Shown one piece after another: positions 1 to 7,761 of a DNA stretch of 7,810 nt. Below the pieces are notes generated by a model. That model had not been told where the DNA came from and ran no database searches. It saw nothing but the letters and a program-made list of their open reading frames with translations. The stretch is taken from assembly GCA_947478535.1 (NCBI GenBank), contig CANJXD010000261.1, positions 1-7,810 on the forward strand, read 5' to 3'. How positions within the stretch are numbered: position 1 is the stretch's first letter; the number at the start of each line of letters is the position of its first letter. This DNA is from Acetobacteraceae bacterium. Lineage in GTDB: Bacteria > Pseudomonadota > Alphaproteobacteria > Acetobacterales > Acetobacteraceae. Both the position numbers and the translations under genes were made by a program.

Positions 1-147
1 GCCGAGGGGATAGGGCCCGATGTCGCAACTGCCGCTATCGGCGATGATGAAATCCGGGTTGAGCTTGCAGCCTTCCCGGAAGCTCGCGGGCTCCAGCGGC
101 GTGAAGCCGAGATGCCCTGTCGGACAGATGATGGTCACGTCGGCCAT
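1..147 (-). CDS. AtuA/DUF1446-like protein, N-terminal 49 residues (partial at left edge)
   Basis: Only the first 49 codons are present; the reading frame is still open at base 1, so the gene continues beyond the window. The protein starts MADVTIICPTGHLGF and contains PTGHLG (residues 9-14) followed by a spaced pattern F-x-x-G ... P-D-x-I-x-A-D-S-G-S-x-D-x-G-P-Y-x-L-G. From memory, that order (a PTG-x-LG start, then D-x-GS-x-D-x-GPY-x-LG) resembles the N-terminus of proteins annotated as 'acyclic terpene utilization AtuA family' (DUF1446), whose biochemical reaction is generally undefined. The start is well supported: an AAGGAGGG ribosome site lies 9-10 bases upstream, preceded by a tandem pair of sigma-54-like promoters. 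The gene follows the sigma-54 activator in the same direction with an 86-base gap and no visible terminator. It is probably a cytoplasmic enzyme of the same pathway as the upstream transporter operon (inference). The family call rests on 49 residues only. Confidence 0.6.
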   Translation of the reverse strand, partial: MADVTIICPTGHLGFTPLEPASFREGCKLNPDFIIADSGSCDIGPYPLG

Positions 148-156
148 GATGGTCGG

Positions 157-164
157 CCCTCCTT
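157..164 (-). promoter_or_regulatory. Ribosome binding site of the AtuA-like gene
   Basis: The minus strand reads AAGGAGGG here, a near-perfect complement to the 16S 3' end. About 9-10 bases separate it from the ATG at 147. It fixes that ATG as the start of the partial gene at the left edge and shows the frame is real despite its truncation. Confidence 0.75.
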
Positions 165-180
165 GTCTTGTTGCGGCGCC

Positions 181-198
181 ATTGCACGGACCGTGCCA
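181..198 (-). promoter_or_regulatory. Candidate sigma-54 (-24/-12) promoter, proximal copy, for the AtuA-like gene
   Basis: The minus strand reads TGGCACGGTCCGTGCAAT from 198 to 181. Against the sigma-54 consensus TGGCACG-N4-TTGCW, all seven bases of the -24 box match. The -12 box is GTGCA, one base off. The invariant GG (197-196) and GC (185-184) have the required ten-base spacer. Transcription would begin near 172, giving a leader of about 25 bases that includes the AAGGAGGG site. A sigma-54 activator gene ends only 36 bases upstream of this box, which makes the reading more likely than a chance match. Confidence 0.7.
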
Positions 199-202
199 CT
201 CG

Positions 203-220
203 ATTGCACGGACCGTGCCA
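203..220 (-). promoter_or_regulatory. Candidate sigma-54 (-24/-12) promoter, distal copy
   Basis: This is the second, identical TGGCACGGTCCGTGCAAT on the minus strand, with GG at 219-218 and GC at 207-206, again ten bases apart. It begins 13 bases after the stop codon of the activator gene. A transcript from this copy would start near 194, inside the proximal copy. Polymerase holding one copy would therefore block or compete with the other. It may instead serve as a decoy or as a protein-binding site. Confidence 0.55.
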
Positions 221-233
221 CTCGGCCCGGCCC

Positions 234-1217
234 TCACCCCATCCCGAGCTTCAGCATCTGGTGGCGCATCGCGTGGCGGGAGAGTTTCAGCCGCTGCGCC
301 GCCACCCCCTGCAGCCCGCCGGCTTCCTTCAGCGCGGCGGTGATCAGCGCGCGCTGGAAAGCCTCCGTCCCGGCATGGAAGCCCAGATGCAGCGGCATGT
401 GGGACGCCCCTTCGCCCATCCCGGCAATGGCGGGCGGGGCGCGGCCTTCCACTTCCCGCAGTAACCGGTCCGGCAAATGGCGGATCAGCACCTGGTCCTC
501 GACTTCCAGGATCGCGATGCGCTCGATCAGGTTCTCCAGCTCCCGGACATTGCCGGGCCAGGTGTAGCGGCGGAAGGCGTCCCGCACCGCGGGCTCCAGG
601 CCGCTGATCCGTCGCCCGCAGCGCTTGCCGTGCAGGGCGCAGAAGCGTTCCGCCAGCAGCAGCACGTCATCGCCCCGCGCCCGCAGCGGTGGGATGTTCA
701 CCGGCACCACCTGGAGCCGCCAGTAAAGGTCATCCCGGAACCGCCCCGCATTCACCTCCGACAGCAGAATGCGGTTGGTGGCGGCGATGAAGCGGACATC
801 GAAGCGGATCGGCTTCAACCCGCCGACCCGGCGGAACTGCATGGTATCCAGCAGCGTCAGCAGCTTGGCCTGCAGTTGCAGGTCCATCTCCCGGATCTCG
901 TCGAGGAACAGGGTGCCGCCATCCGCGGCCTCGATCAGCCCGGGCTTGGCCGCCATGGCGCCGGTGAAGGCGCCGCGCTCGTGCCCGAAGAGCTCTGATT
1001 CCATCAGGCTCGCCGGGATGGCCGCGCAGTTCACATCGACGAAGGGCTTGGCGCCGCGGGGGGAAATCCGGTGCAGCATGCGCGCGACGAGCCCCTTGCC
1101 CGTGCCCGTCTCTCCGTAGATCAGCACTTGGCGTACCGGGCTCTCAGCGATGCGGGCGACCAGCGCCCGTACGGCGCGGATGCTCTCGTGGTCGCCGATC
1201 AGATCGCTCGCCGGCAT
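234..1217 (-). CDS. Sigma-54-dependent transcriptional activator, PspF-like architecture (no sensory domain)
   Basis: This 327-residue bacterial enhancer-binding protein remodels RNA polymerase-sigma-54 using ATP. The AAA+ domain has Walker A GETGTGKG (35-42), the sigma-54-contacting loop GAFTGA (82-87), Walker B GGTLFLDE (100-107), sensor I AATN (145-148), arginine-finger positions R161 and R167 in FRDDLYWRL, and sensor [10 protein letters not shown] (220-227). Residues 287-327 form a Fis-type helix-turn-helix (AALKEAGG ... [10 protein letters not shown]). Walker A begins at residue 35, as in PspF, so there is no room for a receiver, PAS or GAF domain. The C45 gene's TAA lies in the same frame 13 codons upstream, which rules out a longer N-terminus. 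The start has only a weak G-rich ribosome site. A 36-base gap follows the C45 gene, so the gene is probably part of the transporter operon. Likely targets are the sigma-54-type promoters at 181-220 and 7746-7761. The signal controlling it is unknown; family members of this form are often governed by a partner protein. Confidence 0.94.
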
Positions 1218-1253
1218 GATGCGCCCCCGGGCCTCGCGCCCATGGCGTGCATC

Positions 1254-2297
1254 TTACGCCAAGGCGTGCATTTCGCGCCATCCTTCGGGCAGCAGCGCGA
1301 AGGTCCGCCAAGGTGTGCAGCAGGGCGGGCCGAGCGCGATCATCGCCCGCCGCGCCACCGCATCCCACACCGCCCCGGCCAGAGTGGGGGAGGGATCGGG
1401 TGCGTGCCGGCACAGTGCCACCGGCGCGTGCATCCCGAGCAGCTTGCGTGCCTCCCGCGCCGGGTCTTCCCGCAGCGCGGCGCGCAATGCGGCGACGCGT
1501 GGCGCCGAATGGGCGACAGACGGCAGGACTTCCGGCGCCGCCTCATAGTGGTTGGTATGCGCGAGCACCACGCCCTGCGTGATATCCACGCGCCCGTGCC
1601 GCAGCTCCACGCTGGCCGCGGCGCCGCTGGCATCCGCCATCACCAGGCTGCCGCCGCCGGCATGCGGCAGGGCGCGGATCATCGTCAACGCCTCCGCCAC
1701 CGTCGCGCAGGCCGAAAGCAGCCGGTTCATCAGGAAATAGCGCAGCATCCCCGGCCCGTGCGCGGCCGTGGCAATCTGCGTATCCGCCAGCGCGAAGCCA
1801 TCCGAGTTCATCCCCGAGGACCACGCCCCCGGCGCGCCAAGCGATCCGAGGCAGAGCACGCTGCGCCCGCCCCAGGACGGGTCCGCCTGGGTGAAGACGC
1901 GTTGCAGCGCGACGTGCTCCGGCCGGAAATCCCGGTTCTTCGCGACCACCCCATCCCGCGCGAAGGCCGTGCAGCCGTCGGTATCCACGGGCGCCCCATC
2001 GGCTGGATGCTGTGCGAGATCGGCGAGGCAGCCCAGATGCAGGAAATCGAAGACCTGCGCGGGCTCCAGCCCGAAGCCGCCCGCGATCCCCGCGCATTCC
2101 GCCATGGCTTCCGGCGCCTGGGCCGCCGTCCATTCCCGCTGCGCGTCGAGGAATGCCGCGCCACGCGGGGTGATGGTTGCGGCTGCGAGGCGCATCATGA
2201 TGGCGTCCCGTACCGCTGGTGCCATCTCCGGGTAGGCCAGCCCCTGGCCGAGCCCGCGCGCCCGCGCATCCCCGTGCAAGGTGACAACCGCGCTCAT
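1254..2297 (-). CDS. C45 family peptidase / acyl-CoA:6-aminopenicillanate acyltransferase-like Ntn hydrolase
   Basis: The product is 347 residues, the usual length for this family. It is made as a precursor that cleaves itself to expose an N-terminal cysteine, then hydrolyses or transfers an amide-linked acyl group. Visible family features are DTDGCTAF with the predicted nucleophile Cys109 after Gly108, KNRDF (120-124) just after it, SGMNSDGFAL (161-170), and AHTNHYE (246-252). The stretch before Cys109 would be the smaller subunit and the rest the larger one. Known relatives include fungal isopenicillin-N acyltransferase and beta-alanyl-amine hydrolases (Tan, carcinine hydrolase), so the substrate could be an N-acyl or beta-alanyl amine or a peptide-like amide. 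There is no signal peptide, so it is cytoplasmic. The ATG overlaps the preceding ATPase stop as ATGA and has a good GGAGG site six bases upstream. Being coupled to a peptide-type importer suggests it processes the imported compound (inference). Confidence 0.88.
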   Translation of the reverse strand: MSAVVTLHGDARARGLGQGLAYPEMAPAVRDAIMMRLAAATITPRGAAFLDAQREWTAAQAPEAMAECAGIAGGFGLEPAQVFDFLHLGCLADLAQHPADGAPVDTDGCTAFARDGVVAKNRDFRPEHVALQRVFTQADPSWGGRSVLCLGSLGAPGAWSSGMNSDGFALADTQIATAAHGPGMLRYFLMNRLLSACATVAEALTMIRALPHAGGGSLVMADASGAAASVELRHGRVDITQGVVLAHTNHYEAAPEVLPSVAHSAPRVAALRAALREDPAREARKLLGMHAPVALCRHAPDPSPTLAGAVWDAVARRAMIALGPPCCTPWRTFALLPEGWREMHALA

Positions 2298-3280
2298 CCC
2301 ACGCCTCCGTCATGCAGGTGGCAGGCGACGACATGCCCCGTGCGCTCCATCGAGACACGGCGCGGCGCCTCCACCCGGCAGCGCGGTCCCGCTTCGGGGC
2401 AACGCGGATGGAAGGGGCAGCCCGGCGGCGGGGCGATGGGGGAAGGCAGGTCCCCCGTCGCCAGCTTTGCCGCGCCCGCCGCCGGCGCATCGAGCCGCGG
2501 CACCGCGGCCAGCAGCGCCCGCGTATAGGGATGCGCCGCATGGCGGATGACCGCATCGCGCGGCCCTTCCTCCACCACGCGACCGAGATACATCACCGAG
2601 ATCCGCGCCGCGAGATGCGCCACCACGGCCAGATCGTGGGAGATGAACAGCAGCGTCAGCCCCATCTCGTCCCGCAATTCCCGCAGCAGTGCGAGCACCT
2701 GCGCCTGCACGGAGACATCGAGGGCCGAGACCGGCTCGTCACACACCACGAAATCCGGCCGCAGGATCAGTGCGCGCGCGATGCCGATGCGCTGGCGCTG
2801 GCCGCCGCTGAACTGGTGCGGATAGCGTTCGAGATGCGCGCGGGCGAGGCCGACGCGATCGAGCATCGCCAGCAGGCGCGGCTCCGCCGCCGCACCGCGC
2901 AATCCCTCATGCAGCGCAAGCGGCAGGGCGATGATCTCGCGCACCGTGCGGCGGGGATTGAGGCTGGAATAGGGGTCCTGGAAGATGATCTGCATCCGGC
3001 GCCGCAGCGGCCGCATCGCGTCTTCCGAAAGGGGCGCGATGTCCTGGCCATCGAAGCGGATGGTCCCTGCGCTCGGCGCGTGCAGGCGCAGCAGCAGCCG
3101 GCCGAGCGTGGACTTGCCGCAGCCGCTTTCCCCGATGAGCCCCAGCGTTTCCCCCTGCGCAATGGCGAGATCGACGCCATCCACCGCGCGCAGCACCGGC
3201 GCCGCGCGCCCGGCCAGCGCGGCGCCGAGGCTGCGTGGCAGGGCGTAGTGCTTGGCGAGGCCGCGTGCTTCCAGCAGCAT
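2294..3280 (-). CDS. Peptide-type ABC transporter ATP-binding protein (DppF/OppF-like)
   Basis: This 328-residue ATPase is the second nucleotide-binding subunit of the importer. It shows Walker A GESGCGKS (50-57), Q-loop FQDPYSSLNP (Q101), signature FSGGQRQR (157-164), Walker B VVCDEP (178-183), D-loop SALD and the switch histidine H215. The C-terminal oligopeptide extension has HPYTRALL (250-257) and four cysteines (288, 294, 301, 320), a pattern matching the iron-sulfur-type cysteine set seen in Dpp ATPases. CGKS in the P-loop and QDPYSSLNP are typical of the F-type subunit. The start was chosen at ATG 3280, not an upstream in-frame codon, because a GGAGGTGA site stands seven bases before it and the ATG shares one base with the stop of the preceding ATPase. 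Substrate specificity is set by the binding protein, not by this subunit. Confidence 0.95.
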   Translation of the reverse strand: MLLEARGLAKHYALPRSLGAALAGRAAPVLRAVDGVDLAIAQGETLGLIGESGCGKSTLGRLLLRLHAPSAGTIRFDGQDIAPLSEDAMRPLRRRMQIIFQDPYSSLNPRRTVREIIALPLALHEGLRGAAAEPRLLAMLDRVGLARAHLERYPHQFSGGQRQRIGIARALILRPDFVVCDEPVSALDVSVQAQVLALLRELRDEMGLTLLFISHDLAVVAHLAARISVMYLGRVVEEGPRDAVIRHAAHPYTRALLAAVPRLDAPAAGAAKLATGDLPSPIAPPPGCPFHPRCPEAGPRCRVEAPRRVSMERTGHVVACHLHDGGVG

Positions 3281-4248
3281 CACGGTGTCACCTCCGCCGC
3301 GCGGATGCAGCGCGAAAGCCGCGCTTCGCCGAAGGGCACCAGGGGCACGGGCTGCGCGCAGGCCTCGACGGCGAGCGAACAGCGATTGCGGAAGCGGCAC
3401 CCCGCATCGATGCGGGCGAGGTCCGGCACCTGGCCGGGGATGGGGTGCAGCGCGCGGTCGGGATCATCGAGCCGCGGCAGGCTCTCCAGCAACCCGCGCG
3501 TATAGGGGTGGCGCGGTGCGGCGATCACCTCCGCAGTCGGGCCCGTCTCCACCACCTGGCCGGCATACATCACCATCACCCGAGGGCAGCGTTCGGCCAC
3601 CACCGCCAGGTCATGCGTGATCATCGCGATGGCCAGGCCCTGTTCGCGCCGCAGTTCATCCAGCAGGTCCAGCACCTGGGCGCGGATCGTCACGTCCAGC
3701 GCCGTTGTCGGCTCATCCGCCGCCAGCAGCTTCGGCCGTGCGGCGAGCGAGATGGCGATCATCGCGCGCTGGCGCATGCCGCCGGAGAACTGGTGCGGAT
3801 AATCGCCGAGCCGCCGCGCCGCATCGGGAATGCCGACGCGCCCCAGCAGCCGCGCCGCTTCCGCCGTGGGGTTGCCCGGCATGGCGTGGGCGCGCAGCGT
3901 TTCCGTGATCTGCGTGCCGATCGTCAGCGCGGGGTTCAGGGCCGACAGCGCATCCTGCATCGCCAGCGCCAGCATCCGCCCGCGCAGTGCCCGCAGGCGG
4001 TGGGCCGGCAGGGCGCGGAGGTCCTGCCCATCGAAGGTGATGCTCCCCGCCTCGACGCGCCCGGGCGGCCGCAGCAGTCCGAGGACGGACAGGAAAGTGA
4101 CGGATTTGCCGGACCCGCTTTCACCCACGACACCGAGCGATTCCCCCGCCGCGATGTCGAAATCGATCCCGTCCGCCGCGGCCAGCAGCCCGCGCCGGGT
4201 CGGAAACACCGTGCGCAGGCCGCGCACGGAAAGCAGGGCGTCGCTCAT
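3280..4248 (-). CDS. Peptide-type ABC transporter ATP-binding protein (DppD/OppD-like)
   Basis: This 322-residue ATPase pairs with the DppF-like subunit to power import. Motifs in order: Walker A GESGSGKS (42-49), Q-loop [10 protein letters not shown] (Q98), signature FSGGMRQR (154-161), Walker B LLAADEP (174-180), D-loop TALD (182-185) and switch histidine H212. The GMRQR form of the signature and [12 protein letters not shown] are typical of the D-type subunit. The C-terminal oligo_HPY region carries HPYTRGLL (247-254) and cysteines 284, 290, 297 and 314, spaced as in Dpp ATPases reported to bind a [4Fe-4S] cluster. The frame is open further upstream to 4926. The ATG at 4248 is the start because the ABC domain begins right after it and it overlaps the permease stop as ATGA. 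No strong ribosome site is seen, consistent with translational coupling. Confidence 0.95.
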
Positions 4249-5138
4249 GCGCTCTGGTGCAGTCGCGGGTCGAAGGCATCGCGCAGTCCCTGGCTGGCCA
4301 GGTTGATGGACAGCACGAGCAGCAGGATGGCGACGCCCGGCAGGGTCGAGACCCACCAGGCATCCACCAGGAAGTTCCGCCCATCCGCGACCATCGAGCC
4401 CCAGGACGGGGTCGGCGGCTGCACGCCGAGGCCGAGGAAGGACAACGATGCCTCGAGGATGATGACATAGGCCATGCGAAAGGTCGCGACGACGAGGACG
4501 GGGGAGAGCACGTTGGGCAGGATCTCCCGCAGCATGATGTGGCGCGGACCGCAGCCGAGCGCGCGCGCGGCCTCGACGTAGTCCTGTTCCCGCGCCGCCA
4601 GCGTTTCCCCGCGCACCACGCGGCAGGTGAAGACCCATTCCTTCAGCACGAGGGCGAGGACGATGTTGTGCAGCCCCGGCCCCATCATCGCCATCAGCCC
4701 GATCGCGAAGACCAAGTAGGGAAAGCCCAGCAGCGTATCCACGAGGCGGGAGATGAGCGTATCCGTCCACCCCCGCAGATACCCCGCCGCCAGCCCCGCC
4801 AGCGTGCCGATCACCGCCGCGATCCCCACCACCATCGCGGCGACGGACAGCGACACCCGCGCGCCGTGGATGAGGCGGGAGAGAATATCCCTCCCCAGCG
4901 CATCGCAGCCCAGCGGGAAGGCCCATTCCCCGTCTTCCGCCCAGACCGGCCCTTGCAGGCGGCGGAAGAGATCGGCCTCCGACGGGTCCTGCGGCGCGAT
5001 CCAGGGCGCGAAGACCGCGAGGACGATGAAGACCGCGATGACCGAGAGCGCCACCACCGCGGTGCGGTTCGCGGCCAGGCGATGCAGCGCGAGGGCGGTG
5101 GGGGAAAGCGGCGCGTCTTCCGCGAAGGCGCCGCTCAC
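4245..5138 (-). CDS. Peptide-type ABC transporter permease (DppC/OppC-like)
   Basis: This inner-membrane permease has 297 residues. It has an N-terminal membrane helix (about 27-48, ending AVFAPWIAPQDP), the family's conserved periplasmic stretch PLGCDALGRDILSRLIHGAR (75-94), then several hydrophobic segments (about 97-120, 138-152, 156-170, 211-232 and 264-281). The EAA loop that contacts the ATPases is EAARALGCGPRHIMLREILP (189-208). LSFLGLGVQPPTPSWG (232-247) is another hallmark of C-type permeases. The frame runs upstream to 6593 without a stop, but the real start is GTG 5138: it overlaps the preceding permease stop as GTGA and gives the normal family length and N-terminus. The ribosome site is weak, again suggesting coupling to the upstream gene. 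Confidence 0.93.
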   Translation of the reverse strand: MSGAFAEDAPLSPTALALHRLAANRTAVVALSVIAVFIVLAVFAPWIAPQDPSEADLFRRLQGPVWAEDGEWAFPLGCDALGRDILSRLIHGARVSLSVAAMVVGIAAVIGTLAGLAAGYLRGWTDTLISRLVDTLLGFPYLVFAIGLMAMMGPGLHNIVLALVLKEWVFTCRVVRGETLAAREQDYVEAARALGCGPRHIMLREILPNVLSPVLVVATFRMAYVIILEASLSFLGLGVQPPTPSWGSMVADGRNFLVDAWWVSTLPGVAILLLVLSINLASQGLRDAFDPRLHQSA

Positions 5139-6142
5139 AACCGGACCTTCGGGTTCAGCGCGCCATAGAGCAGGTCCGCGATGAAGTTCAACGCCACATA
5201 GGTCACGGCGTAGAGCAGCACCGCGGCCTGAACCAGGGGATAGTTTCTTGCAAAGATGCTTTCCACCACGAGCCGCCCGAGGCCAGGCCAGCCGAACACC
5301 GTCTCCACGATCATGTTGCCGCCCAGCAGCGATCCCGTCTCGATCGCCAGCACCGTCACGGCAGGGATCAGCGCGTTCTTCAGCGCATGCACGAACAGCA
5401 CGCGCCGGCGGGGAAGGCCCTTGGCTTCCGCGAACAGGATGTAGTCGGTGCCCAGCACCTCCGCCATCGCGCTGCGGATCACGCGGGCGAGCAGGGCCGC
5501 CGTCGGCAAGCCGAGCGTGATGGCGGGCAGGGTGAGATGGCGGATCGCCTGCCACAGCGCATCCACCCGCCCGGCGAGCACGGCATCCACCAGGAGGAAG
5601 CCCGTCACACGCGCCACTTCGGCGGAGAAGGGAATGCGACCGCCCACGGGAAACAGGCCGAACTGCAGGGCGAAGAGCAGGATCAGCAGGATGCCGAACC
5701 AGAAACCCGGCAGCGAGACCCCGAACAGCGAGATGGCGGACAGCGCGCGGTCGATCCAGGTATCCCGGTTCACCGCTGCCGCGACGCCGAGCGGCACCGC
5801 CACCAGCACCGCCACGAACAGCGCCGCTCCGGTCAGTTCGATGGTCGCCGGCAGGCGTTCGGCGATCACGTCGAAAACCGGCCGGCGATGGAAGAAGGAA
5901 ACGCCGAAATCCCCGGTCAGGGCGTTGCCGAGGAACAGGAAGAAACGCACCAGCAGCGGCCGGTCGAGCCCGAGGTCGTGGCGCAGGCTTTCTGCCTGCT
6001 CCACGCTCGCCCGCTGGTCCGCCAGCATGATCTCCACGGGGTCGCCCGGCGTCAGCGTGATCATCAGGAAGACGATGACGCTGACGCCCAGCAGCACGAT
6101 GGGAAGCTGGATGAGCCTTTCGAGAAGGCGGCCTGCGCTCAC
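5135..6142 (-). CDS. Peptide-type ABC transporter permease (DppB/OppB-like)
   Basis: This 335-residue inner-membrane permease forms the channel with the DppC-like subunit. The first helix (about 11-30) is followed by LTPGDPVEIML (30-40), the conserved B-type motif after helix 1, and LGLDRPLLVRF (57-67). A periplasmic GDFGVSFFHRRPV stretch (78-89) leads into further hydrophobic segments (about 101-123, 135-165, 203-222, 257-273 and 304-324). The EAA loop is AEAKGLPRRRVLFVHALKNA (238-257). FGWPGLGRL (283-291) is also typical. Translation starts with GTG at 6142, overlapping the binding-protein stop as GTGA; no clear ribosome site precedes it. The length matches the family and nothing looks broken. 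Confidence 0.94.
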   Translation of the reverse strand: MSAGRLLERLIQLPIVLLGVSVIVFLMITLTPGDPVEIMLADQRASVEQAESLRHDLGLDRPLLVRFFLFLGNALTGDFGVSFFHRRPVFDVIAERLPATIELTGAALFVAVLVAVPLGVAAAVNRDTWIDRALSAISLFGVSLPGFWFGILLILLFALQFGLFPVGGRIPFSAEVARVTGFLLVDAVLAGRVDALWQAIRHLTLPAITLGLPTAALLARVIRSAMAEVLGTDYILFAEAKGLPRRRVLFVHALKNALIPAVTVLAIETGSLLGGNMIVETVFGWPGLGRLVVESIFARNYPLVQAAVLLYAVTYVALNFIADLLYGALNPKVRL

Positions 6143-7695
6143 CCGGCGATCCGGACCCGGTGAAGGTTGATGCGACTATCGGCCTGCGGCTGCCAGCCGG
6201 CGATGCGGCGGGATACGCCGTAGAGGTCCTGCGGCAGCCAGAGGAAGATCCACGGGACTTCCTCCGAGACGATCTTCTGCGCCTCCAGATAGCCGGCCTG
6301 GCGCTTCGCCTGGTCCACCTCCGTCTCGGCCGCATCCAGCAGCGTATCGACGCGGGCATTGGAATAGCCGGCGCTGTTGCCGCGCCCACCGGTCTTAAGC
6401 GTCGGCAGCATGATGTCGGAGGGATCGAGCGAGCCATTCCCCCAGGAGGTGATGTACATGTCCCGCTCCCGCCGCCGCTCCGCATTCTGCCACATCGGGC
6501 TGAGCACGGCGCCTTCCCAGACCTGGGCCCGCACGCGCAGCCCAGTACGGGACAGCAGCGCGGCGATGGCCTCGGCGATCTCCCGCGTCGCACCGGTGGT
6601 GTCGATCACCATCTCCGTCCCCTGCGCGACGCCGGCTTCGGCCAGCAGGGCGCGGGCACGGGCCAGGTCATGCGCGTATTCCGGCAGATCGGCGTTGAAG
6701 GCGAAGGCATCCGGGCTCATCACGCCCTTGAGCGAGGTCGCGGTATTGCCGAGCACGCGGCTGATGATGGTCGCCTTGTCCAGCGCGTGGTTCAGCGCGC
6801 GGCGCACCCGCACATCGTTGAACGGCGCCTTGGCGAGATTGAGGGCGACGAAGAAGGTGCGCGTCCCGTTCACCTTGGCGACGGCGGCGTTGCGGCTGGC
6901 TTCCACCTGGCGGATCGCGGAGGGCGGCAGGTCATTGATGATGTCGACCTCTCCCGCCAGCAGTGCCGCGACGCGGGAGGCGTTTTCCGGCAGCACGCGG
7001 AAGATCACGCGGTCCACCTGCGCCGGGCCGACGGGGGGAATGCCCGCGGCACCGCCGTAATAGCCGGCGAAGCGTTCCATGATGACAGCCTCGCCGCGCC
7101 GCCAATCCACCAGCTTGAACGGCCCGCAGCCATCGGGGCGCGTCTGCATGCCTTCCTGGCCGACTCGCTGCACCTGGCGGCGGTTCATGATTTCCGAGAA
7201 GGGCAACATCGCCGGCATCAGTGCCCAGGGGCTGGAAAGCTTCAGATGCACCGTGAGCGGGTCGATCACCAGGGTATCCGCCAGCGGCCCCAGAAGGTCC
7301 CGCCGCGGGCTGGTCTGCCCGGCCATGGCGTTGGGCTTGGTCATCCGGTCGAAGGAGAACTTGATGTCCTCCGCCGTCAGCAGGTCACCGGAGTGGAAGC
7401 GGATATTCGGCCGGATCTTCACCTCATAGGTCGTGGCGTCGAGCGCGTGGATGCTCTCCGCGATCTCGGGCTGGATCGCCATGGCGGCGTCCCGGGTGGA
7501 AAGCCCGTCATGGATGTTGCGCAGCAGCGTCTGGGTTTCGCGGTTGCGGTGGTTGGCGGGGTCGAGCGTCAGAGCATCCTGGGTGAAGCCCACGCGGACT
7601 TCGCGCGCGGCCTGCGCTCCTGCCCTGCCACTGCCGAGGCCGATCAGCGCCGCGGCTGCCGGCGCCGTGATGGCGCTTCGCCTGGTCATGTTCAT
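6139..7695 (-). CDS. ABC transporter substrate-binding protein, family 5 (peptide/nickel type)
   Basis: This 518-residue periplasmic receptor is for the importer encoded downstream. It begins with an export signal: TRRSAIT (residues 4-10), a hydrophobic stretch APAAAALIGLG, and an AQA site predicting cleavage after residue 29. The twin arginine in TRRSAIT resembles a Tat signal, but the hydrophobic core also fits Sec. The mature part has family 5 landmarks: LTLDPANHRN near the start, a FHSGDLLTAEDIKFSFDRM block, DGCGPFKLVDW, LNLAKAPFNDVRVRRALNHA and a late NSAGYSNARVDTLLDAA. Three in-frame ATGs lie at 7701, 7695 and 7689. I chose 7695 because GGAGGG (7708-7703) stands seven bases before it, whereas the ATG at 7701 is only one base away. 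A sigma-54-like promoter lies upstream. Family 5 includes receptors for peptides, opines, nickel chelates and sugars, so the ligand is not known. Confidence 0.94.
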   Translation of the reverse strand: MNMTRRSAITAPAAAALIGLGSGRAGAQAAREVRVGFTQDALTLDPANHRNRETQTLLRNIHDGLSTRDAAMAIQPEIAESIHALDATTYEVKIRPNIRFHSGDLLTAEDIKFSFDRMTKPNAMAGQTSPRRDLLGPLADTLVIDPLTVHLKLSSPWALMPAMLPFSEIMNRRQVQRVGQEGMQTRPDGCGPFKLVDWRRGEAVIMERFAGYYGGAAGIPPVGPAQVDRVIFRVLPENASRVAALLAGEVDIINDLPPSAIRQVEASRNAAVAKVNGTRTFFVALNLAKAPFNDVRVRRALNHALDKATIISRVLGNTATSLKGVMSPDAFAFNADLPEYAHDLARARALLAEAGVAQGTEMVIDTTGATREIAEAIAALLSRTGLRVRAQVWEGAVLSPMWQNAERRRERDMYITSWGNGSLDPSDIMLPTLKTGGRGNSAGYSNARVDTLLDAAETEVDQAKRQAGYLEAQKIVSEEVPWIFLWLPQDLYGVSRRIAGWQPQADSRINLHRVRIAG

Positions 7696-7702
7696 TCTCA
7701 TA

Positions 7703-7745: not shown

Positions 7746-7761
7746 AGCAAGCCGCATGCCG
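7746..7761 (-). promoter_or_regulatory. Candidate sigma-54 (-24/-12) promoter of the transporter operon
   Basis: The minus strand reads CGGCATGCGGCTTGCT from 7761 to 7746. It matches 10 of the 12 defined bases of TGGCACG-N4-TTGCW, including a perfect TTGCT -12 box, with GG (7760-7759) and GC (7748-7747) ten bases apart. Transcription would start near 7735, about 40 bases before the binding-protein start at 7695. The operon it would drive encodes a sigma-54 activator as its last gene, which supports the call. Upstream activator sites would lie mostly beyond the right edge of the window. Confidence 0.6.

Follow-up and report, generated by a model that had tools for sequence, protein, structure and literature searches.

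A duplicated 22-bp unit resembling a sigma-54 promoter upstream of an AtuA-family gene in an Acetobacteraceae bacterium

The locus and its tandem repeat

The window (the whole stretch of 7,810 nucleotides analysed here, from contig CANJXD010000261.1 of an Acetobacteraceae bacterium) holds a cluster of genes on the minus strand (Table 1), encoding a solute-binding protein, two permeases, two ATPases, a C45-family hydrolase, a short sigma-54 activator and an AtuA-family protein, the last cut by the end of the window. Of the transporter proteins, all but the second permease were recognized through Pfam, and that permease was called by eye within the open reading frame at 4245..6593. The 49-residue piece of the AtuA-like protein has no Pfam match when searched alone; it is 86% identical over 49 residues to its ortholog at locus L020, which itself matches PF07287 (AtuA) at 4.5e-29, in support of the name AtuA-like given in the original prediction.

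The activator matches PF00158 at 1.5e-64, with the Sigma54_activat domain beginning at residue 6. Its helix-turn-helix is weak by Pfam (HTH_8, 19.7 bits, below the cut-off of 22). Like the PspF-type enhancer-binding proteins, it consists only of an AAA+ domain, with GAFTGA, and a helix-turn-helix. It was rejected as PspF itself, since the pspF equivalog TIGR02974 gives 259.1 bits where its cut-off is 443.55, and, unlike PspF, it has no psp-like gene among the neighbors that were identified.

Table 1. Features of the window and tandem -24/-12 loci found elsewhere (functional assignments are predictions)
Feature	Position	Strand	Remarks
AtuA-family gene start	1..147	-	49 codons in window; predicted target of promoter
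Ribosome-binding site AGGAGGG of AtuA-like gene	157..163	-	function inferred from sequence
Proximal 22-bp unit	181..202	-	holds -24/-12 element TGGCACGGTCCGTGCA (183-198), with start predicted near 172; probably the ancestral copy
Distal 22-bp unit, identical	203..224	-	-24/-12 element TGGCACGGTCCGTGCA at 205-220; predicted +1 near 194, within proximal element
Sigma-54 activator (bEBP) gene	234..1217	-	AAA+ domain with GAFTGA, Fis-type HTH, without N-terminal regulatory domain
Predicted activator site 2, GCGTAAGATGCACGC	1245..1259	-	matrix pair scan
Predicted activator site 1, GCGCGAAATGCACGC	1264..1278	-	matrix pair scan; overlaps last codons of C45 gene
C45-family autoproteolytic acyltransferase/hydrolase gene	1254..2297	-	NF040521 at 1.1e-38, above cut-off; PF03417
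ABC transporter genes	2294..7701	-	encode two ATPases and two permeases as well as a family-5 solute-binding protein, whose gene starts at 7701
Second predicted -24/-12 element, CGGCATGCGGCTTGCT	7746..7761	-	from sequence; before solute-binding-protein gene
Tandem pair	L122		21 bp x 1.9; before DctP gene
Degenerate array of -24/-12-like units	L157, about 380-500		22 bp x 3.8; before DctP-type gene
Tandem array	L174		22 bp x 3.0; before pyridine-nucleotide oxidoreductase; GG lost in third unit
Tandem pair	L178		22 bp x 2.0; before Peripla_BP_5 gene
Tandem array	L182		23 bp x 3.7; before sugar transferase
Tandem array	L176		35 bp x 3.8; before SBP_bac_3 gene
Non-identical elements 22 bp apart	L127, 1501-1537		before P-II gene (Pfam)
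Non-identical elements 22 bp apart	L149, from class sample		before P-II gene, read from start sequence only
Non-identical pair	L124		before flagellar hook-type gene
Non-identical pair	L120/L121		orthologous to each other

Sigma-54 (-24/-12) promoters carry GG-N10-GC within a sequence like TGGCAC-N5-TTGC and are usually described as single switches, inactive without an activator. Upstream of the AtuA-family start, two identical 22-bp units abut exactly, as originally predicted. Tandem Repeats Finder, run on the whole window, gives them its top score among 8 rows (period 22, 2.0 copies, 100% match), and the longest perfect tandem run at periods of 8-59 is 22 in the window versus no more than 12 in any of 40 single-base shuffles. 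The repeat was said to span 181..220; the start is correct, but the true end is 224, 4 bp further on. Counted from the AtuA start codon at 147, the two -24/-12 elements lie 36-51 and 58-73 bp upstream; they fit the consensus except for G in place of T at -15, and their GG-N10-GC spacing, like the starts predicted from it near 194 and 172, is as the original prediction gave it. The pattern TGGCACN6TGCA matches at these two places, both on the minus strand, and nowhere else in the window, where a mean of 0.03 matches is expected by chance; two matches were reached in 0 of 200 shuffles.

The promoter and its second copy in related genomes

Orthologs of the activator were taken from named genomes, from plasmids and from 397 Acetobacteraceae genomes (17 places at a minimum of 64% identity). 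A single script scanned 29 relatives, 27 of which have AtuA next door; the others are L010, where the contig stops at the activator, and L099, where AtuA is not adjacent. (Loci L085-L092, L094-L096 and L098 duplicate others that were in the count before, and L097 is the contig of L010.) A single TGGCAC-type GG-N10-GC element precedes AtuA in 24 of the 27 loci and is absent from three. The 24 comprise 16 of Acetobacteraceae type (13 that make up a column profile, plus L093, L100 and L101), five of Ciceribacter type and three from Cupriavidus, the five and the three being near-copies within each group. One contig titled as an Arenimonas MAG (L016) is near-identical here to the Ciceribacter loci and is probably misbinned.

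In the column profile of the 13 Acetobacteraceae relatives, positions -26 to -21 (TGGCAC) and -15 to -11 (GTGCA) do not vary at all, unlike the center and the flanks; G stands at -15, instead of the consensus T, in all 13. Position -27 is G in both units of the window as against C or T in 13 of 13 relatives, which perhaps weakens both units. This conservation supports the reading of the 44 bp in the window as the sigma-54 promoter of the AtuA-like gene, and the promoter so predicted is itself old, having been kept in the relatives.

The exceptions are instructive. Activators at the 24 promoter-bearing loci have GAFTGA in 23 cases and GSFTGA in one (L101). At the three loci without the element (L017, L019 and L021) the corresponding motif is GSFAGA or GTLAGA, and a search for a -24/-12 element across the whole of each fetched locus found none. 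Two of these three genomes give no match to RpoN, and in the third the match is weaker (E 1.9e-35, as against 1.6e-65 or better for all the others). Overall, RpoN was matched in 17 of the 20 genomes carrying activator orthologs; in one of the others, a 2.3-Mb draft (G011), the element is present at the locus yet RpoN has no match. Loss of the promoter sequence goes together with loss of the sigma factor and of the activator's motif, and the three loci serve as a natural control in support of the promoter. Since they are probably related, the co-loss counts as support and not as three independent events.

The second unit was sought in all 24 orthologous promoters, and each has one unit only. 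The nearest genus (15 genomes) contributed two orthologs, L020 and L002, both already among the 24. Since no relative has a second unit, the duplication looks recent, in agreement with the original prediction, which had also entertained selection on both copies; a duplication confined to one lineage gives no sign of the latter. Its remark that sigma-54 promoters are normally single suits the 24 orthologs but not the family at large, where tandem -24/-12 pairs recur (next section). The predicted 5' untranslated region is 25 nt from the proximal unit and 47 nt from the distal unit. It is 19-26 nt in L001-L006 and L020 and 28-48 nt in the other loci measured (L093, L100 and L101 left out). Since the proximal unit keeps the length found in close relatives, the distal copy is probably the new one and the proximal unit probably the ancestral copy.

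Perhaps the second unit does nothing. The promoter could be real and the additional unit the product of replication slippage, with no effect on output, so that only the proximal unit, at the ancestral position, matters. The single unit in all 24 orthologous promoters and the ancestral leader length of the proximal unit are what one would expect, the identity of the copies gives no sign of selection, and near-identical tandem repeats of other periods exist too (17, 18, 28 and 35 bp), including L192-L194 (17-20 bp), where a gene start was found on neither side. The points against such neutrality come from tandem pairs in other genomes, and we regard it as the less probable reading, yet as a serious rival, and the main one, of an effect on output.

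Tandem -24/-12 pairs in other genomes

Two patterns were searched for in the 397 Acetobacteraceae genomes. Pairs of TGGCACN6TGC at a spacing of 17-45 occur at 17 places versus 16 in a reversed-pattern control; 8 of the 17 lie at 21-22 bp (binomial 7e-6, assuming uniform spacings, though coding DNA favors multiples of three). Pairs of GGCAYN5TTGC gave 53 rows in 43 genomes versus 4 in the reversed-pattern control, which may, however, be a poor control for coding DNA.

The context of the pairs was assessed for 55 places, of which 54 were placed (L191 was dropped), 34 as non-coding and 20 as coding by a GC3 rule, the window being excluded. Eleven of the 53 GGCAYN5TTGC rows were left out: second places in the arrays of G251, G046, G309 and G057, further places in G057 and G038, and those in G392, G159 (twice) and G323. 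Spacings of L191, L120, L121, L124, L127, L149, L165 and L130 come from the pattern matches, not from Tandem Repeats Finder. A spacing of 20-23 bp is found in 17 of the 34 non-coding pairs versus 2 of the 20 coding pairs (Fisher 0.003, or 0.007 minus two orthologous duplicates), figures to be read with the knowledge that the GC3 rule and the 20-23 bp band were both picked after the data had been seen, and that the search patterns themselves demand two matching elements. Gene starts lie downstream of 24 of the non-coding pairs and upstream of 12 (downstream only, 13; upstream only, 1; both, 11; neither, 9). Both the preferred spacing and the preponderance of pairs with a start downstream only argue against a duplication without effect, as do pairs that are no longer identical, and therefore probably older, in front of genes for P-II, flagellar and binding proteins. 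RpoN was matched in 10 of the 11 tandem-pair genomes tested, the exception being G220, the source of L120.

It may be, then, that tandem -24/-12 units, set about two helical turns from one another, form a promoter design that recurs in the Acetobacteraceae; copies at 20-23 bp would be gained by slippage and kept because the units face a looping activator alike, promoter strength being tunable by repeat number. The window would represent the youngest stage, with two identical units, and G154 (22 bp x 3.8, 83% match) and G309 (23 bp x 3.7) older or larger stages. We put this forward only tentatively. The pattern is post hoc, rises above its control in only one of the two family scans and is not seen class-wide. 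A scan of 385 genomes across the class gave 27 rows versus 11 in the control, with 5 of the 27 at 21-22 bp, four of them from one minisatellite and the fifth before a P-II gene, so a general class-wide excess at this spacing was rejected; an excess across the phylum was likewise rejected by a scan of 378 genomes, with 3 pairs versus 1 in the control, a single one at 21 bp and that inside a 756-nt open frame. A minisatellite of about six 22-bp units, TGGCACATCCCTTGCTGCTTTC, lies at positions 1-130 of L130, at a contig end in G640.

Predicted activator sites and the action of the two units

In the Cupriavidus and Ciceribacter loci, sites resembling GCGTG-N5-CACGC begin 76-130 bp upstream of the AtuA promoter. 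A matrix built from these sites only was applied to the other loci as a 19-bp pair, a spacing that is not independent of the result because it was first noticed in the Acetobacteraceae loci themselves. In all 14 Acetobacteraceae loci, the window among them, the activator gene's leader holds a pair that ranks first or second of all positions (in the window, at 1245-1278, first of 7776), and none of 300 leader shuffles matched its score in any of the 14. In L007 the pair is retained though the sequence before it differs. The transporter promoter was located in 9 loci, and in 8 of them a pair in the region before it likewise ranks first or second; L011 is the exception (rank 66). The predicted transporter promoter of the window (7746-7761) has C in place of T at -26, as does L001, and in most relatives similar elements precede the activator gene by about 6.5-6.7 kb. 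The final 7 bases of the window resemble the end of an activator site.

In the window, the matrix scores nothing above 7.4 over the 1 kb that precedes the AtuA promoter. Site-like sequences in relatives overlap the promoter (L005, 15.5; L001, 9.7) or lie at -834 (L001, 14.0) and -502 (L002, 10.9). The predicted pair stands before the activator's own gene in all 14 Acetobacteraceae loci, whereas the Cupriavidus and Ciceribacter sites lie 76-130 bp from the AtuA promoter; in the window the pair may be an enhancer acting from about 1.04-1.08 kb across the activator's own gene, or it may serve autoregulation. According to the available text of a study of Desulfovibrio, the commonest class of promoters has a site within 100 nt, and four have theirs more than 300 bp away (PMC4641369); that of a study of Clostridiales gives a usual distance of 100-250 bp (PMC6615313), a range far exceeded by the predicted sites of the window.

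Could the two units themselves be binding sites, tandem palindromic operators or activator sites whose likeness to -24/-12 elements is incidental? The sequence GCACGGACCGTGC forms a perfect palindrome around an odd center, activator sites are usually tandem palindromes (according to the accessible part of PMC6296734), and the G at -15 in all 13 relatives departs from the promoter consensus. However, the predicted activator motif is a different one, and in the relatives it is not the palindrome that outlasts the GG-N10-GC bases, the outcome that the original prediction had set against a promoter, but the reverse: GG-N10-GC is kept at 24 of the 27 loci, and CACG-N3-CGTG is intact in 10 of these and broken in 14, as in L093, which retains TGGCACAAAGCATGCA and has lost the palindrome. 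On these grounds the palindromic site was rejected as a very improbable reading. It is more improbable still that the units act as RNA hairpins at which the mRNA of the activator ends or is processed: GCACG-N3-CGTGC could, as read from the sequence, give a 5-bp stem, but it has no run of T, a scan of 1-1400 for terminators finds none (so a terminator hairpin was rejected), L004, L093 and the Ciceribacter group no longer have an intact stem, and compensatory changes are not seen in the alignment of 13 relatives.

We consider it rather probable, on the whole, that the window carries a real sigma-54 promoter recently duplicated in tandem by a slippage-type event, which left two mutually exclusive loading sites for RNAP-sigma54 that would raise occupancy. 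According to this model, a slippage-type event copied the 22-bp unit, and a closed complex of RNAP-sigma54 would form on either unit but never on both together; we infer the exclusion of one polymerase by the other from the position of the distal start, 194, inside the proximal element (183-198). The activator encoded by the adjacent upstream gene would bind the paired sites in front of its own gene, about 1.04-1.08 kb away, loop, and open whichever unit is occupied. Since the units are spaced 22 bp apart, about 2.1 helical turns, both would turn much the same face to the activator. The result would be a higher chance of a closed complex and hence a modestly stronger output, with control unchanged and starts near 172 and 194. 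Work on nifH promoters reportedly indicates that G at -15 instead of T may weaken closed complexes; if so here, weak closed complexes would make a second loading site useful. If multiplied units do set output, copy number would be an evolvable dial readable from sequence alone, and the two-turn spacing would be relevant to the choice that a looped activator makes between neighboring closed complexes.

The NtrC, NifA and PspF systems pair single -24/-12 promoters with an enhancer-binding protein. The locus in the window is like them in its GG-N10-GC element, its activator with GAFTGA and its palindromic, paired (predicted) activator sites, and unlike them in that two identical elements abut and the predicted sites are remote, lying about 1 kb upstream and in front of the gene for the activator itself. 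A literature search found no description of tandem, abutting, identical sigma-54 promoters and no report of recurrent tandem -24/-12 pairs such as those in Acetobacteraceae, but absence there weighs little, as the subscription literature lay mostly outside the search. The nearest parallels are B. glumae lipAB, with two putative sigma-54 promoters (PMC12134079), and P. stutzeri algU, with two putative RpoN sites (PMC9141998). Both resemble the window in having two predicted sigma-54 elements before one gene, and in the accessible parts of those reports the elements are not described as abutting, identical copies like those of the window. Chlamydia also has promoters in tandem, one of them for sigma-54, as in the window, but there the accessible part of the report assigns the two to different sigma factors, sigma-54 and sigma-66 (PMC7482065).
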